64,000 nt of DNA from Eledone cirrhosa (taxonomy: Eukaryota; Mollusca; Cephalopoda; Octopoda; Eledonidae). Shown piece after piece: positions 5,779-61,510 of this stretch. How positions within the stretch are numbered: the first letter of the stretch is position 1; the number at the start of each line of letters is the position of its first letter. The stretch is from positions 33,055,490 through 33,119,489 of the forward strand of contig OZ024748.1 of the NCBI GenBank assembly GCA_964016885.1, read 5' to 3'. The notes under the pieces were generated by a model that was given only the letters and a program-made list of their open reading frames with translations, had not been told where the DNA came from and made no database searches. A program made the translations under genes and the position numbers.

Positions 5779-6203
5779 CATATATATATACATACGCACA
5801 CGGACGGCCATATGCACATACATGCACATATGCATATTTTCTTACACACACATGCTTCCACGTATACATATATAAACAAAATTGTAAAATAAAACCGTAA
5901 AATAAATATACAATATCCAATAAAAAATACATTATACAATAAAATAACAATATAGTATACAATATAATATATATATATATATTTCGTTTCTGAATTTGTT
6001 TAGCAAGATTCTTTATCTGAAATCGTGTGTTGAAACCGATATTGTTATACTTTGGGAGGGTCACGTTGCCAATAAGAAACACACGCACCAGTTGCTTTCA
6101 CTTCAATTTATTATATATTTATAAATTTATAAATTTACAAATCTACAAACTTATAAATTTTTGGTTGGTTGGTTGGTTCCACAACCAGATAGTTGTTTAT
6201 ATA

Positions 6204-6248
6204 TAGTCATAGTCCTTTCGTCACACACTCTGATACCTCTTCAGTGAC
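6204..6248 (-). ncRNA. Hammerhead motif, PLE-B copy 1, stem II degraded
   Basis: Minus strand: stem I AGTCA, core CTGAAGA, a stem II region with several mismatches, GAAA, minimal stem III AGGACT, cleavage A, then TGACT pairing back to AGTCA. Same layout as 8082-8126, but the ascending strand of stem II has mutated, so activity is doubtful. Confidence 0.6.
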
Positions 6249-6457
6249 TGGGGATTCCTTTCTTTGTTTCTGTGCCTTTCCTTTCTTCTGTCCTACGCCA
6301 TTTTGTTTCTGTGTGTGTGTTGTGTGCTCAGTTTGCGCATGCGCCACATCCGGGTGTCTGTGTGTGTTTGTGTTCATTTATCTATTTATTTATTTATTTA
6401 TTTATTTATTGTTGGTTGGTTGTTTGTTCTATGTGTGTGTGTGTTTTCATTTTGTCC

Positions 6458-7360
6458 TTAATTGTAAGTTGTGATGTTGCTGTTCCACTCATATTTTCTA
6501 TTTAATTTTGGTTGTAATTCTTTTATGCTTACTGCCTCTGTAATTTGCCTAAACATTGCATCTTTTCTGTGTGTGGATTCTATTTTTATTTCTATGTTCT
6601 CTAATTTACCCCTGTGTTCTATCTTAGCATGTTGGTAGAGCACAGATGATTCTTTATTATCTTGAAGGTTTCGCCAGTGTTCATTTATTCGTTCCCCTAT
6701 ACTACGAGCTGTCTCACCTATGTACACTATATTTTTGTTTCTACATTGTCCTTCAGTACATCTTATGCTATACACTACATTTCTAGTTTTACAGTTAATA
6801 TGGGGGCTTATTTTACAGGTTATACATTTCTTATCTATACATGAGGGTCTTTGGAACGGGTATGTCTTGCTAATAAGTGTTTTTACGGAGGTACCTGGTC
6901 TTTCTACTATCTTAATATTAAGTTTATGTTTATTTAGGGCCCTTCTAAATTTGTAGGCTAGTTCGCCTCTAGGGGTTGTATTGATGAACATTACACTCTG
7001 CTATTTATTGCTATCATACCATGAGTTTATTCTATTGGCCTTGTTCCTAGTTCTTTCTATTCTATTCCAAAAGTTGCTCCTATACAAGGGGCAGGTCCCA
7101 TTTATGTCATTATTTACCATTTTTTCCCATTTGGTTCTGGCTCCTCTATACACTCTGATTCTATCACTCTGATTGTAGCCAGAGAACTGCATACGGTGGA
7201 TGAAGTGTTGTATGTGTCTCTCTAGTTCTTCGGGGTTGCACATGCGGGACACATTTCTCATCACCCGTACCAAATCCGCAATCAGTATGTTGATTTTGGT
7301 ATGGTCCGAAATGGCCGAGTTTCGATGGATCAGATGGTTGGGGTGTCTACTTGGGTAGTC
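6458..7360 (-). pseudogene. PLE-B RT tail and GIY-YIG nuclease, interrupted
   Basis: Read on the minus strand, the protein begins with DYPSRHPNH and runs through QFSGYNQSDRIRVYRGA to SWYDSNK, then an in-frame TAG. It continues with QSVMFINTTPRGE and a complete-looking nuclease domain: CITCKISPHINCKTRNVVYS, then IVYIGETARSIGERINEHW, ending at 6458. The YIG motif is retained, unlike in PLE-A3. The other arm has the same TAG, while PLE-A1 has a sense codon there. That indicates the arms share a common already-broken source. Confidence 0.8.
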
Positions 7361-7908
7361 TAAAGAACAGTCAGGAAGTAGAGAAAAACACAATGGAAAG
7401 CATCCAGCAAATAGCAAACTCCATCCACCAGAGCATTAGAGTTACTATAGACTACCCAAGTAGACACCCCAACCATCGATTACCTGTACTAGACACAGAG
7501 CTCTGGTTAGATACCATTAACAACCAAAAACAAATCCTCCATTCCCATTATGCCAAACCCATGACTTCCAAACATCTGATCCACCGAAACTCGGCCATTT
7601 CGGACCATACCAAAATCAACATACTGATTGCGGATTTGGTACGGGTGATGATAAATGTGTCCCGCATGTGCAACCCCGAAGAACTAGAGAGACACATACA
7701 ACACTTCATCCACCGTATGCAGTTCTCTGGCTACAATCAGAGAGATAGAATCAGAGTGTATAGAGGAGCCAGAACCAAATGGGAAAAAATGGTAAATAAT
7801 GACATAAATGGGACCTGCCCCTTGTATAGGAGCAAATTTTGGAATAGAATAGAAAGAACTAGGAACAAGGCCAATAGAATAAACTCATGGTATGATAGCA
7901 ATAAATAG
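7351..7908 (+). pseudogene. PLE-B RT C-terminal fragment
   Basis: Open for 185 codons, containing the conserved PLE stretches STMESIQQIANSIHQ-like (about residue 17), LPVLDTELWLD, ILIADLVRVMINVSRMC and HFIHRMQFSGYNQRDR, ending at the same TAG as the left arm. The RT catalytic box would lie upstream and is absent. The first dozen codons come from the hinge and are not PLE protein. Confidence 0.75.
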
Positions 7909-8283
7909 CAGAGTGTAATGTTCAAATAAATAAATAAATAAATAAATAGATAAATGAACACAAACACACACAGACACCCGGATGTGGCGCATGCGCAAAC
8001 TGAGCACACAACACACACACAGAAACAAAATGGCGTAGGACAGAAGAAAGGAAAGGCACAGAAACAAAGAAAGGAATCCCCAGTCACTGAAGAGGTCACA
8101 TAGTGTGTGACGAAAGGACTATGACTATATATAAACAACTATCTGGTTGTGGAACCAACCAACCAACCAGAAATTTATAAGTTTGTAGATTTGTAAATTT
8201 ATAAATATATAATAAATTGAAGTGAAAGCAACTGGTGCGTGTGTTTCTTATTGGCAACATGACCCTCCCAAAGTATAACAATA
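7360..8283 (+). mobile_element. PLE-B copy 2 (right arm of inverted pair), internally deleted
   Basis: Plus-strand PLE-B. The RT tail (7393-7908) is followed after QSVMF by a direct jump at about 7923 into the TAAA tract and 3' non-coding region. The whole nuclease domain (about 0.5 kb) is thus deleted. It ends in GACCCTCCCAAAGTATAAC and a TA tract. Similarity to the left arm is high over the shared parts. Confidence 0.85.
8082..8126 (+). ncRNA. Hammerhead ribozyme of PLE-B (well formed)
   Basis: Stem I AGTCA (8082-8086); core CTGAAGA (8087-8093); stem II GTCACA/TGTGAC (8095-8100 with 8106-8111, six Watson-Crick pairs, one unpaired G at 8094); GAAA (8112-8115). A minimal stem III follows, A8115-U8120 and G8116-C8119 with a two-base loop. 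The cleavage residue is A8121, and TGACT (8122-8126) pairs with stem I. All conserved core bases are present. Type I hammerheads with tiny stem III are a known feature of PLE ends. Self-cleavage here is inferred from sequence only. Confidence 0.8.
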
Positions 8284-8299
8284 TATATATATATATATA

Positions 8300-8615
8300 T
8301 ATAGTTTAGCGAGGTTTTTTATATGAAATCGTGTGTCGAAACAAATATTGTTATACTTGGGGAGGGTCATATTTGTGTAATATTGCCAGAATTAATAACA
8401 GAACACATTCACTGTTTGGTTGGTTTTCGCTTCTCGCTGTCTTTTATATCTGCGATCTAACTTAATCGGTCCTCAATGTTGCCATTGACTGACCGACGGT
8501 CAAAAATAATACAGATACAATATAGACACAAACACATATATATAGTTTACATAATTTACATAAATCTTTCGTTGCACATCTGCAACATCGTCAGTGGTGT
8601 TATATTTTTTCCTCC
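8300..8615 (-). mobile_element. PLE-A2, 3' terminal fragment
   Basis: The reverse complement matches the ends of PLE-A1 and A3: GACCCTCCCCAAGTATAAC, TATTAATTCTGGCAATATT and the hammerhead-like motif. It lies tail-to-tail with PLE-B copy 2 across a 20-bp TA tract. It has no SINE at the position where A1 does. Confidence 0.8.
8556..8598 (-). ncRNA. Hammerhead-like motif of PLE-A2
   Basis: Minus strand: CTGACGA core, stem II GTTGCA/TGCAAC with loop GATG, GAAA, then GATTTATG. Core boxes and stem II are intact, but stem I pairs poorly (TG with CA, then a mismatch). Confidence 0.5.
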
Positions 8616-8797: not shown

Positions 8798-8990
8798 GGG
8801 TCGTGGATTGGCAATATCGGTAGAGGGCCGGACGCCATGCTTTGACGCATAGAGTTACGGCCCTTGCCATTCTGAGTTCAAATCCCGCCGAGGTTAACTT
8901 TGCCTTTCATCCTTACGGGGTCGATAAAATAAAGTACCAGTAATGTACTGGGTAATTTCTGGCCCTGTGCCAATAGTAGAAATAATTATC
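8798..8990 (+). mobile_element. SINE-1 with target-site duplication
   Basis: Complete SINE-1 with A-box-like GGATTGGCAATATCGGTAGAG and B-box-like GAGTTCAAATCCC. Flanked by GATGTATAATA at 8787-8797 and 8991-9001. Confidence 0.9.
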
Positions 8991-9825: not shown

Positions 9826-10025
9826 ATTTAAAATACCTCCGTCTATTTGATTATCTTGTTCGCTACCTTACATTATAAAATATAGTTTATATTTAGCTGT
9901 ATCTTGTTATTGCTTTAAGTAAATTAAAGATATTTATAATATTTAAATTACCTCCGTCTATTTAATTATGTGGTTCACTACCTTACATTATAAAATATAG
10001 TTTATATTTAGCTGTACCTTGTTGT
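9826..10025. repeat. About 120-bp tandem duplication inside the R-repeat
   Basis: ACCTCCGTCTATTT, CCTTACATTATAAAATATAG and TTATATTTAGCTGTA each occur twice about 120 bp apart. The same duplication is present in the 60.2-60.4 kb copy, so it is ancestral to the family. Confidence 0.8.
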
Positions 10026-19800: not shown

Positions 19801-20700
19801 TCGTCGTAGCCGTCACAATGTTGTCCAACGTGACCGTTTAGGTCGCCTGCAATAATTATATAGTCACTGTCGGTTATTTGGGAGGTAGTGAGTATCAGTG
19901 TCTCATAGAATCTGTCTTTTATAGTGCTGGGCAGTCCGGATTGGGGTGCGTACGCGGATATTACTGTCACCGTGGTTCTATTGAGGACAAGTCTTATTTT
20001 AATTATTCTGTCGTTCACTCTATTTACGTCTATTATCTTATCTGCCCACTTTTCTGCTACTATGATTCCTACCCCACCCAGCCCATTGTCATTTCCCACC
20101 CAGAAAAGCTTATAGCATCGTTTTCTACCCACAATGAATCTAGCAGATCCACCCCTCCACCTGGTCTCTTGAATACAACAAACATCGACCTCCTTACGTT
20201 CAAGCATTTCTACAACCTCGTTAGAGCGACCCTTTAGGGTGCCTACATTCAAGGTACCAAATCTGAAGTTTTGGATTGCGTTTGGGGGGTGGGAAAGGTG
20301 GGGAGAGGGGGGAGATGGGGTTGTGTTAGCCATCCGCGGCCGAAACAAAGAGGCATGTTCGCATTCTCGTCCACGAGGTGTGTTTGTCTTTAACTTTGGC
20401 ATTGTCGCTGAGCGTCCAGATTTTTCTCTCTTCAACTCTCCGGAATTCCGTAGTCCCTCCATCCTACATACCGAAGGCGACCAGGTAAGCGATAGTATAG
20501 GCCTCTGGCTTATGATTGGTCCACGTGATAATAATGGTGGTGCGTGGGGGCGGGAGGGAGGGGTGTTGAGTTGTTAGCGAGAAGAATAGGTTTAAGTTAG
20601 ATCCTAGTATTTTACGAACGTAAACAAAAATACAAGATTTGTTTAGCTTGATACGCCAAAAACTTCCGTATCTTACAATCGTGACAAAATACAAGAGATT
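16834..20700 (-). mobile_element. RTE-D, apparently full-length autonomous LINE
   Basis: Consists of an uninterrupted ORF (17232-20462, minus), a 3' UTR (16861-17231) with GTTTAACGTCCGTGTTCC, and an (ATC)n tail at 16834-16860. The 5' UTR extends upstream of 20462 by an undetermined amount (end placed at about 20700). RTE-type LINEs usually end in short tandem repeats such as this. No target duplication was identified because the 5' end is not defined. Confidence 0.85.
17232..20462 (-). CDS. RTE-clade LINE polyprotein: AP endonuclease, reverse transcriptase, PHD-like finger
   Basis: 1076 codons without a stop. Residues about 65-310 form an exonuclease-endonuclease-phosphatase fold, with FGTLNVGTL (metal-binding Asn), QETRWRG (catalytic Glu), AGDLNGHVG, SQVDYILTRR and SQHRL (terminal His). 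Reverse transcriptase covers about 560-800 with MQFGFVSGKST, DLEKAFDRVP, VHQGSVLSPLLF and the catalytic LLYADDLTLIAES at about 755-765. A Cys/His cluster at about 815-860 (CAECRKG, CPKCKVWVHKRCSG, FTCGQC) looks like a PHD/RING-type finger. The C-terminus has GRPRKTWDE. All catalytic motifs are intact, in contrast to every other LINE here. Start is the first ATG; residues 1-60 are Pro/Ser-rich and uncertain. The enzyme would nick DNA and reverse-transcribe its own mRNA. Confidence 0.92.
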   Translation of the reverse strand: MEGLRNSGELKREKSGRSATMPKLKTNTPRGRECEHASLFRPRMANTTPSPPSPHLSHPPNAIQNFRFGTLNVGTLKGRSNEVVEMLERKEVDVCCIQETRWRGGSARFIVGRKRCYKLFWVGNDNGLGGVGIIVAEKWADKIIDVNRVNDRIIKIRLVLNRTTVTVISAYAPQSGLPSTIKDRFYETLILTTSQITDSDYIIIAGDLNGHVGQHCDGYDEIHGGYGFGTRNEEGSRILEFCDANNLTICNTNFKKRDNHLITYRSGAHTSQVDYILTRRRDKVTVVNTKSLPHEECTSQHRLIISDLIVRTRRTRQQKRTTLRRKIWKLKDPTAKNKFQSILLDAFDSKEEQIESYKVEEQWEFLKANLLTATDEVCGWSRPVGRRRVTWWWNSKVEGSIKAKKQAWKVWRDGGSREDYQVARREARRQVYFARREAEERKFKHVLQRENQKREVFRIARQCVKENSDIVGEKCVLNDDGVLAITDADKKVAWKCHYERLLNEENKWEKDSLPHIDPIEGPAVLVEGSKISKAIKDMKTGKAAGPSEIVAEMLKASGTVGHTMVTRIVNQVIQNGVVPKDWRSSIIVNCYKGKGDALDRSNYRDIKLIDQVMKVTEKVIAQLIRERIDLDEMQFGFVSGKSTTDALFIVRQLQEKYLAKSKPLYLAFVDLEKAFDRVPHSIIWWALRKLGVDEWLVRAIQAMYKETVSKVRINNEYSEEFSVKVGVHQGSVLSPLLFIIALQAITVEFKTGCPWELLYADDLTLIAESMAELEKKFQTWKRGLESKGLKINLAKTKVLVCKKENKAAVPSGKWPCAECRKGVGRNSILCPKCKVWVHKRCSGITGKLTKNIDFTCGQCSGAISSSKCPQNTSSFNCAEGSIEIVDSFRYLGHKISSGGGCSESTVARVRTGWKKFRELIPLLAAKGFSLKMKGRLYDACIRTAMLHGSETWALCAEDICRLERNEACMLRWMCNSNIRERQSINELRKKLEIRGIRCCLLERRLRWYGHVMRMKDNSCITKCRAIKIDGSHGIGRPRKTWDELINSDLTQLHLTKTMSLDRDLWRYSVIEKTRLT

Positions 20701-23560: not shown

Positions 23561-23895
23561 CATAAATGAATTGAGAGAGAGACTGAGCATAAGAGGAATC
23601 AAATGCTGTGTGCAGGAGAGGCGTGTGATGCGTATGAAGGATGACAGGTGCATAAAAAGGTGCAGAGCACTAGAAGTCGATGGAAACCGCGGAGTGGGGA
23701 GACCCAAGAAGACCTGGGACGAGGTGATAAAAGCCGACCTTACCCAATTTCACCTCTCAAGGGTGATGATACACGACCGTGACCTCTGGCGTCACGCAGT
23801 AATACAGAGGACCCGACCCCCCACGAGTACAAGCCGAAGCTGAAGCATATAGACAATATGCCCCCACACCCATCCACTGCATGATGATGATATGT
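23560..23895 (+). pseudogene. RTE-E LINE 3' fragment
   Basis: Encodes the RTE C-terminus only: MRERLSIRGIKCCVQERR, a small deletion, RMKDDRCIKRCRALEVDG and GRPKKTWDEVIKADL. It is nearly the same as the end of RTE-C. It starts immediately after the foldback and ends at a short GATGATGATG. Confidence 0.85.
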
Positions 23896-23904
23896 GTATA
23901 TTAT

Positions 23905-24125
23905 TGCGGTGGATTGGCAGTATCGGTAGAGGATCGGACACCATGCTTTGATGCATAGAGTTACGGCCCTTGCCATTCTGAGTTCAAATCCCGTCGAGGT
24001 TAACTTTGCCTTTCATCCTTACGGGGTCGATAAAATAAAGCACCAGTAACGTACTGGGGTCGATTTAATCTATTTTCCCCTCCCCCAAAATTGCTGGCCT
24101 TGTGCCTATATGAGAAACCAATATT
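23905..24125 (+). mobile_element. SINE-1 copy
   Basis: Complete head GGATTGGCAGTATCGGTAGAG, B-box-like GAGTTCAAATCCC, tail GGGTCGATAAAATAAAGCACC and CCTCCCCCAAAATTGCTGGC. Lies directly against the 5' end of the Tx1-like LINE. Confidence 0.9.
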
Positions 24126-32766: not shown

Positions 32767-33159
32767 AATACCAGATGACATTGGGATAAATTATTATTTT
32801 CAATCTTGGATACATCACCTATATTTATCAGCGTTTGAACACTAAAACGTTTCAAACAGAACTTATATAACACTGTTTATATAAATCTGTCGTATTACTG
32901 CGAAATATTTCCTCAAAACTGAGTTTATTTTCTTCACTATCAGATGATTTTGTATTTTAACTAAACTTGGATGAAAAAGAAGTTTGTATTATCTTCAGAT
33001 ATTAACTGAAATTACAGTTGAGCGAAATATAGAAGATATATTTTTTAGGAATATAATATAAAAAATATTACAAGAAAAACATTTGTATGTTCTGTTGAAG
33101 AAGAAATCATTGTGGAAAATAAATTCAGTGAAAAGGTTAAATGCGAAACACAATCGAAA

Positions 33160-34785
33160 ATGTTTAGTATTCCTGGTGAGGTGACAAAGGTTGGAGAAGA
33201 GAGTGGTAAATCATTCAATAAACGTAGTACCTTAACTACTCACAAAGTTATACATACAGGAGATAAGCCATATCACTGTGATATCTGTAGTAAATCATTC
33301 TCTCACAGTAGTACCTTAGTTAATCACAAACGTATACATACAGGCGAGACGCCATACCACTGTGAGATCTGTGGTATATCATTCTCTCAAAGTAGTGCCT
33401 TAACTAGCCACAAACGTACCCATACAGGAGACAAGCCATATCACTGTGATATATGTGGTAAATCATTCTCTCTAAGTGGTACCTTAACTAGCCATAAACA
33501 TATACATGTAGGAGACAAGCCATATCACTGTGATATCTGTGGTAAATCATTCTCTCAAAGTAATGCCTTAACTAGCCACAAACGTATACATACAGGAGAC
33601 AAGCCATATCACTGTAATATCTGTGGTAAATTATTCTCTCAATGTCATGCCTTAACTACCCACAAACGTACCCATACAGGAGACAAGCCGTATCACTGTG
33701 ATATCTGTGGTAAATCATTCTCTGAAAGAGGTAATTTAACTAAACACAAACAAACACATACAGGTGAGAAGCCATATCACTGTGAGATCTGTGGCAAATC
33801 ATTCTCTCAAAGTAATGCCTTAACTAGCCACAATCGTATACATACAGGAGACAAGCCATATCACTGTGATATCTGTGGTAAATCATTCTCTGAAAGAGGT
33901 AATTTAACTAAACACAAACAAACACATACAGGTGAGAAGCCATATCACTGTGAGATCTGTGGCAAATCATTCTCTCAATGTCATGCCTTAACTAGCCACA
34001 ATCGTACCCATACAGGAGACAAGCCATACCACTGTGACATCTGTGGTAAATCATTTTCTGATAGTAGTACCTTAACTAGCCACAAATATATACATACAGG
34101 AGACAGACAATATCACTGTGATATCTGTGGTAAATCGTTCTCTCTGAAAGGAAACTTAACTTCTCACAAACATATACATACAGGAGATAAGCTTTATCAC
34201 TGTGTGATCTGTGGTAAATCATTCTTGCGGAAAGGTCAATTAACTTCTCACAAACATACCCATACAGGTGAGAAGCCATATCACTGTGAGATCTGTGGCC
34301 AATCATTCGCTCAAAGTAATACCTTAACTACACACAAACGTATACATACAGGCGAGACGCCATACCACTGTGAGATCTGTGGTATATCATTCTCTCAAAG
34401 TAGTGCCTTAACTAGCCACAAACGTACCCATACAGGAGACAAGCCATATCACTGTGATATATGTGGTAAATCATTCTCTCTAAGTGGTACCTTAACTAGC
34501 CATAAACATATACATGTAGGAGACAAGCCATATCACTGTGATATCTGTGGTAAATCATTCTCTCGAAGTAATGCCTTAACTAGCCACAAACGTATACATA
34601 CAGGAGACAAGCCATATCACTGTAATATCTGTGGTAAATTATTCTCTCAAAGTAATGCCTTAACTAGCCACAAACATATACATACAGGAGACAAGCCATA
34701 TCACTGTGATATCTGTGGTAAATCATTCTCTGTGAAAAGTAGCCTAACTACTCACAAACTTATACATGCAGAGGAGAAATCATAA
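33160..34785 (+). CDS. C2H2 zinc-finger protein, 18 tandem fingers, single coding exon
   Basis: The frame is open from 33049 to the TAA at 34783-34785. The first in-frame ATG is at 33160 (541 residues); a GTG at 33112 in VENKFSEKVKCE context could be a mutated former start. After a half-finger ([17 protein letters not shown], lacking its CxxC), 18 complete fingers follow in the form YHCxICGKSF, LTxH, HxHTGDKP linker. The linkers are canonical TGEKP-like, as expected for DNA binding in the nucleus. No KRAB, SCAN, BTB or other effector domain is present, and the C-terminus ends a few residues after the last finger. Fingers 2-5 and 14-17 are almost the same, as are 6-7 and 8-9. Target and role unknown. 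Confidence 0.88.
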
Positions 34786-36639: not shown

Positions 36640-38040
36640 TACCAGCAGCTGTGGATGAAGCTATTATGGTAGCTTACCAGTGCTGGCAAGAAGATGATGG
36701 GTAGGCGAGAAAATGTTGGCCTCCCAGATATATTGCCGAAAGTGCTAGGCAGCCAGGAAAAAATGGCTGGTTGCTTTGAAAATAAAAAAGCAAGTTGAAT
36801 CTGTAGGTGGGTAGTAGTTGCAGTGTAAATTCCATAATTCCGGCGAATCCTCAGAAGTGGTGGAAATGCTGACAGGTCCAGTTCCATTTGTTGTTTTCCC
36901 AGTGAGTCGGGTAAGGTAACAAGATGGAGGTTGTTATGGACGATGAGTGTGCAACGAGATGCGAAGCTGTTTGAATCCAGCTGCAATTAGCAGTTCTCGT
37001 GTTGTTGTGCCTGTTTGAATCCAGGTGAATTAAGCTCTATGAGTCGCTAGCATGTATCGGCACCTCAACAAAGTGAAAAGGGATCTCGCAGAATATTACG
37101 TTTGAAGAACATATACTAAGAACAACATGTTGGTGTGTGTCAAAGAAATGTGTGTGCATATGTAGGCATGTAATACAGCAAAGAATGTGTGGGTGCAGTC
37201 ATATATACAATGATAAAGAAAATGATACAGTCATATATACAATGATAAAAAAAAAATGAATTTTCATATAATACAGTTTTAAAAAAATAAATGTCCAAAC
37301 ATTGCCTGAAAAAAAAAGGAAGAAAGAAAGAATTGTTTCTTTTCTTTTAACAAAAAGTTCGCCTTTTCTTTTGTTTGAAATTTCTTTTGGAAGCTAGTAG
37401 AATTTTTTTTTTTGCTGTTGTTGGTATCGAAGCGAAGTCGAGCGTTGAAGAGCCGTAAGTCACCACGTGAGTTCGGTGTTTGCTTGTTTGTATTTCAGGA
37501 AGCCGTATCGAAAGAAAAATGTTTCCGTGCCATAATTTTGAAAATACAGCTAATTTTTTCTTTCAAAGATGTTGTCGCAGGCGGGTTCATGAAAGTTAAA
37601 CCACGTGTTGTTCTTCTTAAAAAAAAAAAAACTACTTCCATTTTTTTTCCTTAACGGTAGAGACGATAGAAGAGGTGAAAGCGTAGAAGTAAACAATATG
37701 ATGTGTGCTGGTTTGCGTCGGTAAAATCTATGAGGCTGCCACATAGTTATTCCGTTGTCTATGGTCAGCGGTTAAGCAGTGTTGTCGCTGCTGCTGCTGT
37801 TGTTGGTAGGGGTGATAGCCATTTTAATACTAATTTCCTCGTGAAAAAAAATTTTTTTTATACATACACTGCCAATTTTAATTGGCAAAAGGAATATTTT
37901 GAACTGAAAATATTCATCACGTCGGGTTCACCATTTTTAGCAGCATAGTATATAAATGTTATTGAGACACGAGTAACATAATAATGATGTCAACAGCAGA
38001 AATTAGAGATGAAATGTATGTTTATTTTTGTTGTAGCACA
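36640..38040. other. Non-coding region, nothing recognised
   Basis: Short open frames (36606-36986 minus, 37412-37654 plus) lack any family signature. T- and A-rich runs at 37230-37400 and 37610-37650. Confidence 0.5.
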
Positions 38041-38045
38041 AATAA

Positions 38046-38160
38046 TTGTTTCTACTTTTGGCACAAGGCCAGCAATTACCCAGTACATTACTGGTACTTT
38101 ATTTTATCGACCTCTGTATGGATGAAAGGCAAAGTTAACCTCGGGATTTGAGCTCAGATC
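38046..38160 (-). mobile_element. SINE-1 3' fragment
   Basis: TTGTTTCTACTTTTGGCACA, GGCCAGCAATTACCCAGTAC and AAGGCAAAGTTAACCTCGG are the reverse complement of the SINE-1 tail. Truncated before the B box is complete. Confidence 0.8.
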
Positions 38161-46190: not shown

Positions 46191-46242
46191 GTTTGTTTTA
46201 CGGAACCCCAAGGTTCTGCGGAACCCATGTTGGCGACCACTG

Positions 46243-46985
46243 CTTTAGAACTCTGTTTAATGCGTCCAGAGCTCCCTTATGGGCCATGGTACACTCATCC
46301 CACACAATGAGCTGACATCGTTTTAGGACTTGGCCTTGGTCGGAGGTCTTACTGATGCTGCAAGTAGGGGTTTCTGACGTTAAGTTGAGAGGCAATTTAA
46401 AACTGGAGTGTGCGGTCCTGCCACCGGGCAACAAAGTGGCAGCAATTCTAGAAGAGGCAACAGCAACTGCAATGTCCTTGTGCATCCTGACTTTTGCAAG
46501 GAGGAGTCTCATTAAAAATGTTTTGCCCGTCCCTGCAGGAGCATCCAGAAAGAACATACCTCCTTTTCTATGGCGCACATGGTCGGCAACAATGGTGTAA
46601 GCACGACGTTGGTCCGGAAGAAGTTGAGGTTCAGTTTCAAGAACGTAGTTGGTAAGAGCATCGACGTCGTAGGACATTTCTCGGAGAAGAGCTGTAGGAA
46701 GTACGTTTGACCCTGTACAGATTGTTTGGGGCAAACCATATGAGGGCAAATCATTTCCGTTGAGTGATGCAACTCTATCCTCTATGTCTATCAACGCTAG
46801 ATTGAAGACTTCGTTGCTGGTACGTTCCATCTCAGGGTATTGCACTTGAGCCTGACATTTGTAGTCCTCGGATAAGTCATCTCTATACCTGAGCCACAAA
46901 GAGATAGGATTACTCAGTTCGCAAGTATGCAGCAGTACTGCAAATAGAGCTCGTAGGCACATGCGCGATTGAGATGCAACAGCTT
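46243..46985 (-). pseudogene. Helitron helicase, N-terminal part
   Basis: RYRDDLSEDYKCQAQ, LLPDQRRAYTIVADHV, LDAPAGTGKTFLMRLLL (Walker A), IAATLLPGGRTAHSSFKLPL and LIVWDECTMAHKGALDALNR (Walker B), ending where the hAT element begins. Motif order matches PIF1-type helicases of Helitrons. Confidence 0.88.
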
Positions 46986-46999
46986 CGAATAAAGTGGCA

Positions 47000-49690
47000 T
47001 ACTACTGTGCACTGTCTTCTAGCAGGCCGCGCTTGAAGCAAGCTTCCCTGTAAGTGCTGCACATGGAACCGTCGGCAGTTCTAAGGTCATGAAAGGACTG
47101 GGGTCCTCTTACCTCATGTAGCAGTAGACGGAGATAGAAGCACTCATGCTGGTTCGGGTGCACTCTGTAAACTCTCCCTGGGCAACTGTCAAACTTTATG
47201 CCAGGATGTCCATCAACAGGCTGACCTGCCTTTCTGCGAACCCATTGTTGTTTATTCCATGTGTAATAGGACGACACCTGAGGATACAGCAGGGTTTGAG
47301 CAAATGAATCGACCTGACAAAATTTGAAGAATGCAGTGAGGGTGGTTTCCCTTGATTCCTCCACCATTTGAGCAGCATTAACGTCAGTGAAGTACACCCT
47401 TTGACCGTTCTCAAGGTGGACTGTGAGATATTCAATTGCAGGGTGCCTTTGGTGTATAGGGAAGCCGAAAATACGCCAGAAAGCCTCGTTGCTGCTGATG
47501 TAACGGCCAACTTTGTATTGCGTGACCTCATCACGGCTGTTGTCCTGCTGAAGACCGAACATAGCAGCGTCTGAACCCTTATTCACATATTTACATATGT
47601 ACTTGATTGACTTGACGGAATTACAGAACTCGACATTGATGTGAGCACTGACGTTCTTGGAAAGAAATGGGGAGTATGGCACTATCCATCTGTTGTCGAC
47701 CTCGTTCTGTCCAACTGTTGCTGTAAAACCATCGTCTCCGGGTTGGAGTCGCCTGTACAGTGGGTATCCGTCAACGCCAGTCTGGGTTTCTTGGAGGAAC
47801 TTTCGGGGAAATCCTTTGCTGCTGACATTGTCGTTCAAGCAGGGTGAGCTTAAATTGAAACCCGCCCACATGGACCATGGACCATGTTTGTCTTCACTAT
47901 GACATAGAGGTCTTTGTCTATAGACGGATCGGGAAACTCTGCGGAGATGATGCTGTCAATGTCATTTGAAGATATTTTTGTTGACAGCCAAAATGAGGGC
48001 GTGCGGTAGGCCCCTCTTCTGCCACTCTACGGTGTACATGTCGCACTTTACTGGGCCAAAAACTTGCCCTCACTTGATGAGCTCCATAAGATTGACTCGG
48101 GCCAGGAGGTCATGCTCGTCTTTGGCCTGTTGCCCTTGGAACAGTTCTGCCCCGATCCCCTTCCACTTTGGATTGCAAGTGAATGTGATGTAGGGCATAG
48201 CATCCTGCGTTCTTTCGTGCATGTAGCGCGGACTTCTGGTGAAGGTGAAGGGGAGAATGCAGACTTTTCCTACGCTGCTGGGAGCTGCGTAATTGTTGAT
48301 GGCATCTCGGAGATGGATGTAGCTCTCAGACTGCAGTTGTTTTGGTGTCACTGTGTGAAACTCAGTCTCTCCGATTCCATTTTTGCGCACATATCAACGG
48401 CGAATTGCTGAAGTAGGTCTCTTGACTGGTGCAGGTGATTGAAGGAATCGTGGCGAACCATGAAGCGGTAGGAGTAGAAATCCATGCATGAAACTGGTTT
48501 TTTGACGGAGTGTTGAGGGTTTACTGGATTATGCAGGGGAATTCCGTACTGATAGCTGTCCTCACCATTTACAAAGAGAAGTGGATACTGGAGCACATCA
48601 TAACACCTATGTGTTTCGCTGATTCGCTGAAGAGTGCTATCTCGACGCTTGAGGACAATGTTTCGTGTATTATGCTGACCCCCATGCATAAGTACAGCGA
48701 TTTCATTGCATGCAGGATAATTGTACCGACCCGGATGCTCCCCAGATGGCATTTTCGAGGCATCAATTACCACAATAAAATTGGCTGTGGTATCTGCTTC
48801 CAAGGCATACTTGAAGCTAATGACAGCTGTTCTTTGTGTGCAGAATGTCTTGCAGTTTCCTTATAAGCTCGACGTTGGTACCAGGTGAAATGGAGTTCCT
48901 CGTGGCTGCCTGCTCGTTGACATTCCCAACAAAGTACAGCTGAAGAAATTGAGGTTCTTGATTGGCGGCTGGTTGGAGGGATCCGATTCTATGGTACACC
49001 TGACCTTGCACCTTAAATGTGGGCATAAATCTGCCTTCCTTGACAATGTTCACCCCGAAAGATGTCATTTGGAAAGCACAGTTATACCGCCGGATGTAAG
49101 TCAGGAAATGCCGTGACTCCGCATACTGCCTGAATATAGGAGTTTCAACGGTTGTGGTGGATCCTCCAGGGGACGTAATTTTACTTTTTTCCATTTGCGC
49201 AACACAAACCAGGTGTTTCTCCGGGCCACTTTTTTGCATTGCAGAAAGAGCACGTCTTTGACATACTCCTAATTTGCATGTCTGTAATCAAAGTCAGGGT
49301 TGTACTCGAATGCTTTTAAGGACCATCGTGAGCAACATGGCCTTGAAATACCTTGCCCAAAGGCCCTTCGTTGAGCATTACATTGTTATCGAATGTCTCG
49401 TTCTTGCGAGGTCTGTGTAGCTCGCGCAGCAGCAGTATTCGCAGCATCCGTACTCCGACGTCTTTTACGCTGGTCTTCCATCTCGGCAGCTCATGCAACA
49501 GAAGTTGATGCGGCCTTAGCGGTTCAGCGAATGGTTCGTTGGTTGTCTGTTTCAAGTGCTCTTCTGGAGGTAGCACGTTTAGCATCCTGCGACCATCGAA
49601 TAGCAGATTCCACTGACGATCCGTTTGCCCGCCCTGTTCTTGTTGTTGCTTTTTCGGCCAATGGAGTATCTCTTCCTTCGAGGCATGACC
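47000..49690 (-). pseudogene. Helitron Rep region (HUH nuclease) in several frames
   Basis: Start MPRRKRYSIGRKSNNKNRAG at about 49688. Upstream domain pieces: 48817-49239 (FRQYAESRHFLTYIRRYN, QVYHRIGSL) and 48348-48803. The Rep core follows: MPYITFTCNPKWKGIGAEL, FGPVKCDMYTVEWQKRGLPH, then ALIL where HUH nucleases have HxH. The Tyr motif is IKYICKYVNKG (about 47580-47610). The C-terminal link to the helicase has HPGIKFDSCPGRVYRV. Several frameshifts and stops (for example near 47950 and 48060). Confidence 0.8.
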
Positions 49691-51976: not shown

Positions 51977-52118
51977 ATATTAGAAAGTGAGGGTTTTTTT
52001 TACAAATTGAAAAATAACCGAGGTGTCCTATACGAGTGAAAGTATAAAGAAAAAGAGATGAAATCGAAAATGCAACTGGAGTCTTATTTTTAAAAAATAT
52101 ATATATATTTATTTGGTT

Positions 52119-52156
52119 CCTTTACCGGTTTCGCAGTTCTTCTGCTTTTCAAAAGG
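52119..52156 (-). ncRNA. Hammerhead-like motif, left palindrome arm
   Basis: Mirror image of 52227-52264 on the minus strand, with the same core changes, the same stem II and the same ACCGGT stem III. Confidence 0.5.
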
Positions 52157-52226
52157 TGAGTTGAGATGGAGGGTCTGTGGTTTTTCTCAGATGTGAGAAA
52201 AACCACAGACCCTCCATCTCAACTCA

Positions 52227-52264
52227 CCTTTTGAAAAGCAGAAGAACTGCGAAACCGGTAAAGG
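52227..52264 (+). ncRNA. Hammerhead-like motif with altered 3-8 core pair (right palindrome arm)
   Basis: Stem I CCTT (52227-52230) with AAGG (52261-52264). Core TTGAAAA where CTGANGA is expected. Stem II GCAG/CTGC with a five-base loop AAGAA. GAAA (52251-52254). Palindromic stem III ACCGGT (52254-52259). Cleavage residue A52260. Core positions 3 and 8 are changed together (C to T, G to A). They pair with each other in the active hammerhead, so the change is compensatory in form. Confidence 0.5.
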
Positions 52265-52349
52265 AACCAAATAAATATATATATTTTTTTTAAAAATAAG
52301 ACTCGAGTTGCATTTTCGATTTCATCTCTTTTTCTTTATATATATATAT

Positions 52350-53394: not shown

Positions 53395-53862
53395 TGCTAC
53401 TGGTCACCAGTTGGTGCTACTGGTAACATGTATCCCAGTACAACCTGTCTCATGGTTGAGTCGTTGGCGACTAAACTGGCAACCCCACCAAGGTTTCTTG
53501 GTGAGGAGGGTGACTTTGGACATTCTGCAGGACTAAAAACAGAACTTGTCAAAGGGCAAAGGACCTCTTAAGAGTCAATGGCCATCCAAAATCACCGGGA
53601 GAGATGACCCCTTAGCCTTTGTCAAGGCAGAATTCTAAGAGAAGGAAAACTCTGATATAACACCTGCAACCCTGATGGTATCCAATGATGTTGACTTGTT
53701 CTTCTTTTTGGTAAATATCATCTTGGTCAAGAGAGTGGGACTGGCTTTGTGCAGTGCCTTTGCTCACTATAAAAGCTTCACGGCACAGGCATTGCTTTAT
53801 ATCTGGAGATTTCTCTGCACTTGTCGTCACATGGTACCATGGGCCCAGCACTATGTGACAAT
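53395..53862 (+). repeat. D-repeat copy 2, fused to PLE-A3
   Basis: Reverse complement of 2541-3000 (GTATCCAATGATGTTGACTT, CTTCACGGCACAGGCATTGC). Contains the CACTATAAAAGC box on the plus strand. At about 53862-53868 it passes directly into PLE-A3 coding sequence. Confidence 0.75.
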
Positions 53863-53867
53863 AATTG

Positions 53868-54220
53868 TAACTGTAAAACTAGAAACGTAGTCTATAGCAT
53901 AAGATGTACAGAGGGTACTTGCAGAAACATGACAACAACATACATAGACGAGACAGCTCGTAGCATAGGTGAAAGGATAGACCAACACTGGGGGGAACTA
54001 AAAGGACGAAAAAAATGGGTCAGTACTATACGAACATGCCAGACAACAACACGACGGTAACATAGACAACATAGAAATTAGAATAATATCTAAACATAGA
54101 AATGACCCAGCAAATAAGAGAGGCCAGTGAAATAGAACTTAGAAGGCCAAGGCTAAACAGAAAGAATGAATGGAATAACAACAACACCCAAACAAACAAC
54201 ACTGACCTAAGAGAAGTATA
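53868..54220 (+). pseudogene. GIY-YIG nuclease fragment of PLE-A3
   Basis: NCKTRNVVYSIRCTEGTCRN, then TTTYIDETARSIGERIDQHW. The YIG glycine of the nuclease motif is replaced by Asp. The HWGELKGRK frame, broken in A1, is intact here, but an A-run of one extra base shifts the frame at about 54017. A1 and A3 therefore carry different lesions. Confidence 0.8.
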
Positions 54221-54477
54221 AATAAATAGATAAATATATAAATAAATACATACACAAGCACAATAACAACAAACACATATAAACACACACTAGTAAAGAT
54301 AGAATAGATTAACCAATACACAGTCACCCAATCACGAACACACATCAAACAAAACACTATACACACACGCAAACGCATGCGCAAAGAAGACAAAATAAAA
54401 TAAACAAATAAATAAATATATAAACAGACTAAATAAAGATGGCGTAGAAAATACAATGTAACGGGAGGAAACAATAG

Positions 54478-54521
54478 CACCACTGACGATGTTGCAGATG
54501 TGCAACGAAAGATTTATGATA
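54478..54521 (+). ncRNA. Hammerhead-like motif of PLE-A3
   Basis: Core CTGACGA (54483-54489), perfect stem II GTTGCA/TGCAAC with loop GATG, GAAA (54507-54510), a weak stem III, cleavage residue A54516. Stem I pairs only TG with CA plus one further pair. Confidence 0.5.
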
Positions 54522-54725
54522 AACAATATATATGTGTTTGTGTCTATATTGTATCTGTATTATTTTTGACCGCTGGTCAGTCAATGGCAACATTGAAGAC
54601 CGAATAAATTAGATTACCGATATAAAAGACACAGAAGCGAAAAGCAAAAACCAACGAAACAGTGAATGTGTTCTGTTATTAATTCTGGCAATATTACACA
54701 AATATGACCCTCCCCAAGTATAACA

Positions 54726-54728
<3 letters not shown>

Positions 54729-54777
<49 letters not shown>
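54729..54777. repeat. (TA)n tract between PLE-A3 and the satellite
   Basis: TA dinucleotides with one TG. It joins the PLE end to the first 310-bp unit. Confidence 0.95.
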
Positions 54778-54780
<3 letters not shown>

Positions 54781-56126
54781 TATAGACATAGAATATTCGA
54801 AAATATTCTGTATGTTTATAATAAACATTTTGAAGACCTAATCGCTATAGAATAGAATACGTCACGTATTACAATTAGATTCTCGACAAAAGCAAGGGAA
54901 GTAATCTACGCGTTTCATTCTTATTAGAAATCTTCAGGACTACATATCCAGTGCTTTTATCGAGAATGACACAGCTAGAGACTTATAGAATACTTAGCTG
55001 TGTACATGAACTGGTTTGAAAGAGCGGTTGCCGGTCCGGCAGAAATTAGAAATTGGAATAAATGCTCTGAAATAGCGATATATATGTGAATATAGACATA
55101 GAATATTCGAAAATATTCTGTATGTTTATAATAAACATTTTGAAGACCTAATCGCTATAGAATAGAATACGTCACGTATTACAATTAGATTCTCGACAAA
55201 AGCAAGGGAAGTAATCTACGCGTTTCATTCTTATTAGAAATCTTCAGGACTACATATCCAGTGCTTTTATCGAGAATGACACAGCTAGAGACTTATAGAA
55301 TACTTAGCTGTGTACATGAACTGGTTTGAAAGAGCGGTTGCCGGTCCGGCAGAAATTAGAAATTGGAATAAATGCTCTGAAATAGCGATATATATGTGAA
55401 TATAGACATAGAATATTCGAAAATATTCTGTATGTTTATAATAAACATTTTGAAGACCTAATCGCTATAGAATAGAATACGTCACGTATTACAATTAGAT
55501 TCTCGACAAAAGCAAGGGAAGTAATCTACGCGTTTCATTCTTATTAGAAATCTTCAGGACTACATATCCAGTGCTTTTATCGAGAATGACACAGCTAGAG
55601 ACTTATAGAATACTTAGCTGTGTACATGAACTGGTTTGAAAGAGCGGTTGCCGGTCCGGCAGAAATTAGAAATTGGAATAAATGCTCTGAAATAGCGATA
55701 TATATGTGAATATAGACATAGAATATTCGAAAATATTCTGTATGTTTATAATAAACATTTTGAAGACCTAATCGCTATAGAATAGAATACGTCACGTATT
55801 ACAATTAGATTCTCGACAAAAGCAAGGGAAGTAATCTACGCGTTTCATTCTTATTAGAAATCTTCAGGACTACATATCCAGTGCTTTTATCGAGAATGAC
55901 ACAGCTAGAGACTTATAGAATACTTAGCTGTGTACATGAACTGGTTTGAAAGAGCGGTTGCCGGTCCGGCAGAAATTAGAAATTGGAATAAATGCTCTGA
56001 AATAGCGATATATATGTGAATATAGACATAGAATATTCGAAAATATTCTGTATGTTTATAATAAACATTTTGAAGACCTAATCGCTATAGAATAGAATAC
56101 GTCACGTATTACAATTAGATTCTCGA
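54778..56126 (-). repeat. 310-bp hammerhead satellite (retrozyme-like), block 1
   Basis: Four complete 310-bp units start with GAATATAGACATAGAATATT at 54778, 55088, 55398 and 55708. A 109-bp partial unit from 56018 ends at ATTCTCGA (56119-56126). No differences between units were seen by eye. Orientation is given by the ribozyme, which is on the minus strand at 54879-54967 and every 310 bp after (four copies). AT-rich, no coding. Transcribed and cleaved, it would release 310-nt monomers. Confidence 0.95.
54879..54967 (-). ncRNA. Hammerhead ribozyme, block 1 (first of four)
   Basis: Same fold as described at 56276-56364, in reverse complement. Copies at 54879-54967, 55189-55277, 55499-55587 and 55809-55897. 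Confidence 0.85.
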
Positions 56127-58355
56127 ATATTTTCGAATATTCTATGTCTATATTCACATATATATCGCTATTTCAGAGCATTTATTCCAATTTCTAATTT
56201 CTGCCGGACCGGCAACCGCTCTTTCAAACCAGTTCATGTACACAGCTAAGTATTCTATAAGTCTCTAGCTGTGTCATTCTCGATAAAAGCACTGGATATG
56301 TAGTCCTGAAGATTTCTAATAAGAATGAAACGCGTAGATTACTTCCCTTGCTTTTGTCGAGAATCTAATTGTAATACGTGACGTATTCTATTCTATAGCG
56401 ATTAGGTCTTCAAAATGTTTATTATAAACATACAGAATATTTTCGAATATTCTATGTCTATATTCACATATATATCGCTATTTCAGAGCATTTATTCCAA
56501 TTTCTAATTTCTGCCGGACCGGCAACCGCTCTTTCAAACCAGTTCATGTACACAGCTAAGTATTCTATAAGTCTCTAGCTGTGTCATTCTCGATAAAAGC
56601 ACTGGATATGTAGTCCTGAAGATTTCTAATAAGAATGAAACGCGTAGATTACTTCCCTTGCTTTTGTCGAGAATCTAATTGTAATACGTGACGTATTCTA
56701 TTCTATAGCGATTAGGTCTTCAAAATGTTTATTATAAACATACAGAATATTTTCGAATATTCTATGTCTATATTCACATATATATCGCTATTTCAGAGCA
56801 TTTATTCCAATTTCTAATTTCTGCCGGACCGGCAACCGCTCTTTCAAACCAGTTCATGTACACAGCTAAGTATTCTATAAGTCTCTAGCTGTGTCATTCT
56901 CGATAAAAGCACTGGATATGTAGTCCTGAAGATTTCTAATAAGAATGAAACGCGTAGATTACTTCCCTTGCTTTTGTCGAGAATCTAATTGTAATACGTG
57001 ACGTATTCTATTCTATAGCGATTAGGTCTTCAAAATGTTTATTATAAACATACAGAATATTTTCGAATATTCTATGTCTATATTCACATATATATCGCTA
57101 TTTCAGAGCATTTATTCCAATTTCTAATTTCTGCCGGACCGGCAACCGCTCTTTCAAACCAGTTCATGTACACAGCTAAGTATTCTATAAGTCTCTAGCT
57201 GTGTCATTCTCGATAAAAGCACTGGATATGTAGTCCTGAAGATTTCTAATAAGAATGAAACGCGTAGATTACTTCCCTTGCTTTTGTCGAGAATCTAATT
57301 GTAATACGTGACGTATTCTATTCTATAGCGATTAGGTCTTCAAAATGTTTATTATAAACATACAGAATATTTTCGAATATTCTATGTCTATATTCACATA
57401 TATATCGCTATTTCAGAGCATTTATTCCAATTTCTAATTTCTGCCGGACCGGCAACCGCTCTTTCAAACCAGTTCATGTACACAGCTAAGTATTCTATAA
57501 GTCTCTAGCTGTGTCATTCTCGATAAAAGCACTGGATATGTAGTCCTGAAGATTTCTAATAAGAATGAAACGCGTAGATTACTTCCCTTGCTTTTGTCGA
57601 GAATCTAATTGTAATACGTGACGTATTCTATTCTATAGCGATTAGGTCTTCAAAATGTTTATTATAAACATACAGAATATTTTCGAATATTCTATGTCTA
57701 TATTCACATATATATCGCTATTTCAGAGCATTTATTCCAATTTCTAATTTCTGCCGGACCGGCAACCGCTCTTTCAAACCAGTTCATGTACACAGCTAAG
57801 TATTCTATAAGTCTCTAGCTGTGTCATTCTCGATAAAAGCACTGGATATGTAGTCCTGAAGATTTCTAATAAGAATGAAACGCGTAGATTACTTCCCTTG
57901 CTTTTGTCGAGAATCTAATTGTAATACGTGACGTATTCTATTCTATAGCGATTAGGTCTTCAAAATGTTTATTATAAACATACAGAATATTTTCGAATAT
58001 TCTATGTCTATATTCACATATATATCGCTATTTCAGAGCATTTATTCCAATTTCTAATTTCTGCCGGACCGGCAACCGCTCTTTCAAACCAGTTCATGTA
58101 CACAGCTAAGTATTCTATAAGTCTCTAGCTGTGTCATTCTCGATAAAAGCACTGGATATGTAGTCCTGAAGATTTCTAATAAGAATGAAACGCGTAGATT
58201 ACTTCCCTTGCTTTTGTCGAGAATCTAATTGTAATACGTGACGTATTCTATTCTATAGCGATTAGGTCTTCAAAATGTTTATTATAAACATACAGAATAT
58301 TTTCGAATATTCTATGTCTATATTCACATATATATCGCTATTTCAGAGCATTTAT

Positions 58356-58361
<6 letters not shown>
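56127..58361 (+). repeat. 310-bp hammerhead satellite (retrozyme-like), block 2, inverted relative to block 1
   Basis: The same unit in opposite orientation. TCTATGTCTATATTCACATA occurs at 56141, 56451, 56761, 57071, 57381, 57691, 58001 and 58311, exactly 310 bp apart. Seven ribozymes are on the plus strand. The array stops at 58361 inside a unit and meets a TA tract. The two blocks are head-to-head, so the whole array is a palindrome about 56126. Confidence 0.95.
56276..56364 (+). ncRNA. Type I hammerhead ribozyme, block 2 (first of seven)
   Basis: Outer helix ATTCTCGATAAAAGC (56276-56290) with GCTTTTGTCGAGAAT (56350-56364), 15 pairs including one G-U. Internal loop ACTGGATAT opposite TTCCCTT. 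Stem I GTAGTC/GATTAC (56300-56305 with 56337-56342, one G-U). Core CTGAAGA (56306-56312). Stem II TTCT/AGAA with loop AATA, after a U-U mismatch at the first position. GAAA (56327-56330). Palindromic stem III ACGCGT (56330-56335). Cleavage residue A56336. Repeats at +310 up to 58136-58224. The weak points are the short stem II and a stem III that may need a dimer. Confidence 0.87.

Positions 58362-58385
<24 letters not shown>
58362..58385. repeat. (TA)n tract at satellite border
   Basis: A short TA run replaces the satellite at TTTATTCCAA and leads into the R-repeat. Confidence 0.9.
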
Positions 58386-58390
<5 letters not shown>

Positions 58391-59080
58391 TTTAATTCCC
58401 CGACATCAGTCTTATACTGTCATATCCATTCTTACTTTACAAATGTGTCTACTAAGAGTTCCATTACAATCTGTAGTAGTAAAACTACTATTTCACCAGA
58501 ACATCTGCTATCAGTCATTTATAGACAATATATATATTTTAGACCACATATCAACCTAATATATATATATATTTCCTATCAAATCTGTAGCTAAAGACAT
58601 AAAGTCAGCCTCACTACTTCATTCTGACAAGATATCAATTTATTACTAAAGATGAAGAAGATACACCAACGTTAATGTCGTGAAATAAAGCTGATAACAT
58701 CTTTGAAACTTCTAAATTGATAACAAAGAGATTATTTCTTTGGTTGTTTAGTAAAAACTAACAACACAACACATTGATTATATCTGAAGGAGGTAAGTTG
58801 ACAAGGATTTACTTAATGTCTATATTAATGTGTGTAAATAATATAATTATGTGAACCCTACAACGATCCAGTAATTATATACAAGTGAAAATATATATAA
58901 CAACATTAGAAAAATATATTTCTTCCTCCACTTTTATATATAGAAAAAAAACTTCCAAACTGAAATTTTGATGTGTTATTTTTCAATCACCAGATTCCAC
59001 TGTTACATGTGATATAAAATATATTGTTATCATGACTGTCTTTATTATTTAAAACACCTCCGTCTATATTTCAACCATTG
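58386..59080 (+). repeat. R-repeat copy 2
   Basis: Matches 9312-9860: CAATTTTAATTCC, TGTCTACTAAGAGTTCCATT and TTATTTAAAACACCTCCGTC. A 100-bp insertion (58878-58990) relative to copy 1 interrupts CAGTAATTA and CCAGATTCCAC. Ends at CCTCCGTCTAT. Confidence 0.85.
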
Positions 59081-60224: not shown

Positions 60225-61510
60225 ATATTGTATAATGTGAGGTAGTGAACCACATAATTAAATAGACGGAGGTAATTTAAATAATATAAATATCTTTAAT
60301 TTACTTAAAGCAATAACAAGGTACAGCTAAATATAAAATATATTTTATAATGTAAGGTAGTGAACAAGATAATTAAATAGACGGAGGTAATTAAATAATA
60401 AAGACAGCCATGATAACAATATATTTTATATCACATGTAATAGTGGAATCTGGTTAATTACTGGATCGTTGTAGGGTTCACATAATTATATTATTTACAC
60501 ACATTAATATAGACATTAAGTAAATCTTTGTCAACTTACCTCCTTCTCATATAATCAATGTGTTGTGTTGTTAGTTTTTACTGAACAAAGATATAATGTC
60601 TTTGTTATGAAATTAGAAGTTTCAAAGATGTTATCGGCTTTATTTCACGACATTAACGTTGGTGTATCTTCTTCATCTTTAGTCATAAATTGATATCTTG
60701 TCAGAATAAAGTAGTTAGGCTGACTTTATGTCTTTAGCTACAGATTTGATAGGATATATATATATATATATTAGGTTGATATGTGGGCTAAAATAAATAT
60801 ATTGTCTATAAATGACTGATAGCAGATGTTCTGGTGAAATAGTAGTTTTACTACTACAGATTGTAATGGAACTCTTAGTAGACACAATTGTAAAGTAAGA
60901 ATAGATATGACAGTGTAAGACCGATGTCAGGGAATTAAAATTGTGTGTATATATATATATAATTGTTTCACAAGATACAATTAGATTAATTAAAGTTATA
61001 ATTGTTTCTACTTTAGGCACAAGGCCAGCAATTACCCAGTGCACTACTGGTACTTTATTTTATCGACCCCGTAAGGATGAAAGGCAAAGTCAACCTCGGC
61101 GGGATTTGAACTCAGATCGTAAAGGGACGTAACTATGCTGGAAAGCATGGCGTCCGACCCTCTACCGATACTGCCAATTCACAATCAAGACAGCAGATAC
61201 TCGGTGTCGTTGGGAATGTTTCAACTCTCGTTCCGGTGTCATACATTAAAAGTCCCTGGTATAATTTAATACCTTCAGACACAGTTCTAATCGTATTTAA
61301 TTGATGGTATATCAGAAAGTATCACTCAGTAAAATATCAATTATACACCAATAATAAAACCTCTACGTAGTCTCTCTAACTGGTAGTAATAGCAGTGATA
61401 TTATCCATTACAACTTAGTTTTTTGTTTAAACTCTCCCAAGTTTAGGTATACAATCAACAGTAAATCTTTTGTACAGACTTCGGAATAAACTGGAAGACC
61501 GTCAGAATAT
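60225..61510 (-). repeat. R-repeat copy 3
   Basis: Reverse complement of the 8625-10060 copy: GGTAGTGAACCACATAATTA, GGTGAAATAGTAGTTTTACT and GAGAGACTACGTAGAGG-type segments, ending with GGAATAAACTGGAAGACCGT. Copies 2 and 3 are inverted around the TIR element. Contains a SINE-1 at 61003-61190. Confidence 0.85.
61003..61190 (-). mobile_element. SINE-1 inside R-repeat copy 3
   Basis: Reverse complement of a full SINE-1, from TTGTTTCTACTTTAGGCACA to CTCTACCGATACTGCC and AATTCAC. It sits at a different position from the SINE in R-repeat copy 1, so the two insertions are independent. Confidence 0.88.

Follow-up and report, generated by a model that had tools for sequence, protein, structure and literature searches.

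How does a tandem repeat that carries a hammerhead ribozyme motif in every complete unit come to lie where it does in an animal genome? The question is raised by a 310-bp satellite of the octopus Eledone cirrhosa, located at 54777-58361 of a 64,000-nucleotide stretch of DNA that was analysed in full and is called the window here (NCBI GenBank assembly GCA_964016885.1, contig OZ024748.1, positions 33,055,490 to 33,119,489, forward strand; coordinates below are window positions). Our analysis suggests that this satellite, likely a retrozyme, preserves in its layout a record of double-primed copying that can be tested, next to elements that are likely Penelope-like. The inverted layout says more about how the array arrived than the repeat itself does.

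The period of the satellite is exactly 310 bp, as an initial annotation of this DNA had stated, with 11.57 units altogether (about 11.5 in that annotation) and exactly 11 hammerhead cores. The coordinates and period given there held, but the single head-to-tail orientation did not: the array consists of two inverted arms, and its orientation flips at 56125/56126.

54777..56126, minus strand: left arm, 1350 bp (4.35 units of 310 bp), with 4 complete cores and the hammerhead on this strand
After 55837, 55527, 55217 and 54907, minus strand: predicted cleavage sites of the left arm
56125..58361, plus strand: right arm, 2237 bp, 7.22 units of 310 bp, hammerhead on the plus strand, 7 complete cores
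After 56336, 56646, 56956, 57266, 57576, 57886 and 58196, plus strand: predicted cleavage sites of the right arm
56125..56126, no strand: inversion junction, where the arms overlap by 2 bp, GA

Comparison at a lag of 310 bp gave zero mismatches inside the left arm and inside the right arm. The left arm is also identical to the right-arm unit, the first differing base being 54776, just beyond the left edge. The array has a GC content of 33.9%, and its comparison with the remainder of the window returned only short, low-scoring matches (best E 0.11). At the junction, the left arm stops at unit position 21 and the right arm begins at unit position 99, which is the 5' base of a palindrome with a UUCG loop (unit 99-116). 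The inner junction has no AT tract, and on that ground two independent insertions in opposite orientation were set aside.

The phase of the units bears on the explanation that the array is an ordinary satellite that was partly inverted, or folded back during DNA repair, with a hammerhead that is incidental or dead. Tandem arrays do rearrange, and the hammerhead is not called by Rfam (see below); however, un-flipping either arm fails to recover the 310-bp phase, joining unit position 130 to 99, or 21 to 165. A fold-back predicts equal phase at the junction, where the actual positions are 21 and 99, so that a second rearrangement would be required, and we regard this explanation as rather unlikely. 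As candidates in their own right, partial inversion of an older array and fold-back at the UUCG palindrome are both disfavoured by the unit phase.

The hammerhead is best described on the first core of the right arm:

56300..56342, plus strand: representative hammerhead core, with the cleavage site predicted after A56336
56276..56290, plus strand: 5' strand of its outer helix, 15 bp
56350..56364, plus strand: 3' strand of its outer helix, 15 bp

Read on the outward strand, the core runs through stem I GTAGTC, CTGAAGA and helix II T-TTCT-AATA-AGAA-T in its 5' part, and through GAAA, CGCGTA and stem I GATTAC in its 3' part, with the 15-bp outer helix past an internal loop. The base of helix II is a U.U mismatch, and helix III is composed of one A-U pair and a palindromic CGCG loop. 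The initial annotation had listed CTGAAGA, GAAA, ACGCGT, a 6-bp stem I and a 15-bp outer helix with one wobble pair, all of which were found in the unit, and the cleavage position that it had placed at A56336 is the site predicted here as well. Absent from that annotation are the helix II mismatch, the (AT)n on either side of the array and the likely Penelope-like 3' end to its left (below). A type I hammerhead descriptor, composed after the unit was seen and permitting one mismatch at the helix II base, matched the 11 array cores and nothing else on both strands of the window; it had 0 matches, again on both strands, in 200 Markov resamples of the remaining 60.3 kb.

Several results weigh against an efficient ribozyme. 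The covariance-model search proposed in the initial annotation was run, and the whole window contained no match at the Rfam gathering threshold; a type I hammerhead in each complete unit is called by the descriptor (11 of 11 cores) and not by Rfam. The best hammerhead match in Rfam was HH9, with 16 bits versus a threshold of 52 (E = 0.88 in a 981-base search), and of the 79 matches obtained for the whole window at E up to 10, mostly to microRNA families, none was a hammerhead. The minimum-energy fold of the monomer is not the active one (-4.6 versus -3.1 kcal/mol for the active fold). Two 43-nt cores, co-folded without constraint, form a dimeric hammerhead at -15.3 kcal/mol versus -9.2 for two monomers; this energy is unremarkable, being reached by 163 of 500 shuffles, and was dropped as evidence for a dimeric hammerhead when it failed that shuffle control. 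In a 450-nt tandem RNA, the active helix II has a probability of about 0.16 and helix III between copies a probability of 0.0, while stem I is held local by the outer helix. Based on this modelling, the hammerhead is likely a weak ribozyme, poor as a monomer and needing a partner. An exact search of viral contigs with the 31-nt core gave 0 matches, a result that is uninformative about animal genomes.

Weak hammerheads of this kind have been described among metazoan retrozymes (Cervera and de la Pena 2020, PMC7229834; this and the other papers cited by PMC number are drawn on from excerpts). In the axolotl, HHR_Amex1 has a weak helix III with a palindromic tetraloop and HHR_Amex2 has a U.U mismatch at the helix II base, and both cleave far better as dimers (PMC7229834). 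The array hammerhead unites the U.U helix II mismatch of HHR_Amex2 with the single-pair, palindromic-loop helix III of HHR_Amex1; each axolotl ribozyme thus carries one weakness where the array hammerhead has both. The locus would add an octopus host, and a hammerhead that unites two published weaknesses, to the known retrozymes.

Metazoan retrozymes are described as tandem units of about 150-450 bp with a GC content below 45% and a type I hammerhead in each complete unit (PMC7229834). The array, with its 310-bp tandem unit and 33.9% GC, resembles these non-LTR (non-long terminal repeat) retrozymes in unit size, in GC content and in the likely hammerhead of each complete unit. Further marks of the class are the absence of an LTR, a primer binding site and a polypurine tract. 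Because these properties, including a complete type I core per complete unit, match the published description, and because likely Penelope-like elements with hammerhead-like motifs share the window, a metazoan retrozyme is likely the best label, with cleavage and circles as predictions from the sequence. Penelope-like elements with hammerheads likewise occur in the same genome as retrozymes in the published account; here, the Penelope label is likely and the motifs are hammerhead-like. Unlike the published arrays, this one consists of two inverted arms of identical units, and no such inversion was found in the excerpts of that report. The retrozyme reading of the initial annotation therefore fits in unit size, GC content and complete cores, and is qualified by the weak monomer, the missing Rfam call and the inverted array.

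Folded as a circle, the unit reaches -68.7 kcal/mol, beneath all 100 shuffles (z -5.3). Two points count against a specific fold of the hammerhead RNA. The antisense circle is more stable than the sense circle (-73.6 kcal/mol, z -4.7), so that stable folding is not peculiar to the hammerhead strand; furthermore, 58% of the bases are paired in the circle, versus the more than 70% cited for retrozyme RNAs (PMC4918200).

Given a likely retrozyme in two inverted arms, the question becomes one of how it was copied into DNA. Read 5' to 3' inward from its flank, each arm shows the antisense of the hammerhead and is thus like cDNA (complementary DNA); two DNA ends priming synthesis on a single RNA would leave this pattern. 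Each arm passes the predicted cleavage site several times, and the template should therefore have been circular or an uncleaved multimer. We tentatively favor, at a probability somewhat short of even, a retrozyme insertion that began with a break in an AT repeat: both DNA ends at the break would have primed the copying of the predicted 310-nt RNA circle by a reverse transcriptase, probably one of the same Penelope-like kind as the elements nearby. A fuller version, possible but more doubtful, would have the locus as a frozen transposition product: Penelope-type machinery would have cut an AT microsatellite, and cDNA synthesis would have started at either DNA end and run round one 310-nt, self-made circle, leaving two perfect arms that point outward.

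The steps would be the following. A multimeric transcript would cut itself at every hammerhead, most likely as hammerhead pairs with a common palindromic helix III, ACGCGU, and closure of the 310-nt monomer to a circle would fall to a cellular RNA ligase. An (AT)n tract would be opened by an endonuclease, most simply the GIY-YIG one. On both strands, the 3' DNA ends, which finish in AT, would then pair with AU-rich sites in the circle and be elongated around it for about 4.4 and 7.2 rounds. Finally, the two cDNA 3' ends would pair across GA/TC and be joined, as twin priming combined with rolling-circle reverse transcription. Twin priming with microhomology at the junction is the accepted model for the 5' inversions of L1 elements (PMC2912911), and target-primed copying of circles, with Penelope elements as the mobilizing agent, has already been proposed for metazoan retrozymes (PMC7229834).

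The same route could have used a long, uncleaved linear multimer in place of a circle. The monomer hammerhead looks weak, so multimeric transcripts may persist, and multimeric retrozyme RNAs are seen in the axolotl (PMC7229834). An older genomic array as the source, however, should give differences between units, and there are 0 across 11.57 units; a young, homogeneous source would lift this objection. Because of the zero divergence among units we favor the circle and consider the linear multimer unlikely.

The ends of the array and the sequences around it are as follows:

54726..54777, no strand: left (AT)n tract, between a likely Penelope-like 3' end and the array
58360..58386, no strand: right (AT)n tract, between the array and repeat X
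53869..54727, plus strand: 5'-truncated likely Penelope-like copy, with the 3'-end signature, its 3' end adjoining the left (AT)n tract
54483..54510, plus strand: hammerhead-like motif in the truncated copy, with one extra nucleotide ahead of helix II
58365..59067, plus strand: dispersed repeat X, interrupted at its AT tract

Both outer ends of the array fall within (AT)n. The left one lies at the AU tract of the unit itself (unit position 130, with the tract at 131-141). Since both flanks are (AT)n, a target-site duplication, which exceeds 4 bp in those metazoan retrozymes that have one, is indistinguishable from the tract. The truncated copy on the left is 89% identical to 852-1584 and 92% identical to 1767-1926; its first 3 bp also belong to a repeat at 53404-53871, another copy of which lies in the opposite orientation at 2533-2997 (94.9%). 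The other copies of repeat X, at 9250-9900 (plus strand) and 61002-60323 (minus strand), continue through their AT tract.

Priming by two DNA ends has a competitor in self-priming or template switching by the reverse transcriptase, as invoked for the frequent head-to-head Penelope copies of rotifers, which carry palindromes at their junctions (PMC3846280). The right arm does begin precisely where a palindrome has its base (unit 99-116). A hairpin, however, would be expected to give arms of mirrored phase, whereas the arms are 78 nt apart, and the position of both outer ends in AT tracts is more simply explained by two DNA-end primers; self-priming is accordingly quite unlikely in our estimate.

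A further explanation, an assembly artefact in which the array was collapsed or mirrored, depends on the flanks. Assemblers are prone to error where repeats are perfectly identical and form a long palindrome, as they do in this array. The flanks differ and are not mirrored: one 22-bp match on the same strand is all they share, and a separate element of the window (5967-8303, below) has the same layout with diverged arms. We regard an artefact as very unlikely, and a mirrored contig in particular is disfavoured by the single same-strand match.

Priming from both ends of an AT-repeat break, our tentative choice, also has to be weighed against several observations. The right outer end shares only a short AAT with the unit. 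The left half of repeat X is missing at the array, so that the site has also undergone another rearrangement, either a deletion or an older event. In addition, 5' inversion is rare in elements mobilized in trans by L1 (PMC2912911), the orientation of the arms has a one-in-two prior, and the 2-bp overlap at the junction is weak evidence. The evidence on mechanism comes from one locus and cannot prove a mechanism.

The reverse transcriptase and endonuclease of the proposed route could be supplied by the neighbouring elements. An exact 3'-end signature marks five element 3' ends in the window, and allowing as many as 5 mismatches brought no sixth. Each of the five is 0-66 nt away from an AT tract of at least 14 nt, which is expected for 3.6% of positions; two of them share one tract, and one of the tracts adjoins the array. 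A tail of about 40 nt precedes the AT tract at three of the five ends and is absent at two. In three of the five 3' regions there is a hammerhead-like motif whose helix II is paired and preceded by one extra nucleotide; the motif is broken in the remaining two. Between the two element families, both bases are changed in two of the helix II pairs, as read by eye. A SINE-like repeat (short interspersed nuclear element) is found at 1584-1771 within a likely Penelope-like element, with five further matches in the window (4226-4373, 8803-8989, 23893-24058, 38037-38158 and 60998-61184).

Among four frames tested, one contains a GIY-YIG domain:

6458..7000, minus strand: GIY-YIG endonuclease frame in the left arm of a two-armed element, Pfam GIY-YIG at 24.5 bits (cut-off 22.6)

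The closest protein to this frame, and the sole match among 15 candidates, is Octopus bimaculoides LOC128248506 (54% identity over 85%). In the frame at 3-983, a YVDD motif was read by eye upstream of a GIY-YIG-like stretch, and in Penelope elements the reverse transcriptase precedes GIY-YIG (PMC3846280). The GIY-YIG domain, the YVDD motif and this order make Penelope-like the likely label for the neighbouring elements, judged from sequence. Speaking against the label, the GIY-YIG score is barely over its cut-off, the reverse transcriptase motif was read by eye, and no Pfam reverse transcriptase domain was detected in frame 3-983 even at E up to 10. No relative of solved structure was found for this putative reverse transcriptase frame.

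One of these elements is itself two-armed:

5967..7365, minus strand: left arm of a two-armed likely Penelope-like element, with a tailed 3' end followed by the AT tract 5967-5982
7367..8303, plus strand (approximate start): right arm, with a tail-less 3' end followed by the AT tract 8283-8303

Its arms point outward, with an AT tract at each 3' end. They have three stretches in common, of 357 bp (98.6% identity), 369 bp (96.5%) and 33 bp (97%). The right arm lacks a middle portion of about 580 bp and the left arm lacks about 90 bp near its start. From the identity between the arms we infer that the element arose as one insertion. The retrozyme array is arranged likewise, as two arms that point outward between AT tracts. 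At 8261-8368, the 3' ends of two different likely Penelope-like families lie tail to tail over the shared AT tract 8283-8303.

Inverted copies of Penelope elements are known from the rotifer Adineta vaga, where head-to-head insertions likewise involve GIY-YIG-coding elements (PMC3846280). Rotifer copies are most often head-to-head, and the authors favor self-priming on an antisense template (PMC3846280). Those elements differ from the present array in that they code for protein and have pseudo-LTRs and target-site duplications, whereas the array is non-coding, has many units, and lies in (AT)n in which a duplication is unreadable. The L1 5' inversions resemble the array in the proposed model, with two cDNAs from both target strands joined by a short microhomology (PMC2912911); unlike them, both arms of the array traverse the whole template several times, which requires a circular or multimeric template. 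None of the literature matches listed, judged by titles and the openings of abstracts, describes an inverted retrozyme array. A search joining hammerhead ribozyme, octopus and satellite gave no match, and among the matches listed for any two of retrozyme, mollusc and octopus, one paper contained all three, in a passing mention and a reference title.

The route by which retrozyme RNA circles return to animal genomes, and the reverse transcriptase used, are put forward as a hypothesis in PMC7229834, with Penelope named as a strong candidate. To these ideas the locus adds a structure that fits them, together with priming from two ends. A two-armed insertion of identical units, sharing the kind of site and the layout with adjacent likely Penelope-like copies, would point to one enzyme system. 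If this is true, the long-assumed step from circle to genome would be recorded in one locus. The proposal makes sharp predictions, namely the same polarity at all two-armed loci, outer ends in AT tracts and multi-round cDNA on a circle.

The window contains further features outside the retrozyme and its neighbours. A tRNA-SINE-like repeat presumably resembles the SINEs of octopuses. At 52043-52340, there is a near-perfect palindrome of 147 bp with a 4-nt spacer, with sub-threshold matches to microRNA families on both strands, which is possibly, as a guess, a miniature inverted-repeat transposable element. Broken Helitron-like frames occupy 46198-49287 on the minus strand, with a PIF1 helicase at 127 bits and Helitron_like_N under its cut-off. 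An open frame of 1113 aa at 17232-20573 (minus strand) belongs to a long interspersed nuclear element and encodes an endonuclease, a reverse transcriptase and a PHD finger; its relatives are at most 53% identical among the best 120 of 272 matches, none of which bears an octopus name. Finally, 33049-34785 holds a frame of 578 aa for C2H2 zinc fingers, with an 84-bp repeat as its building block.

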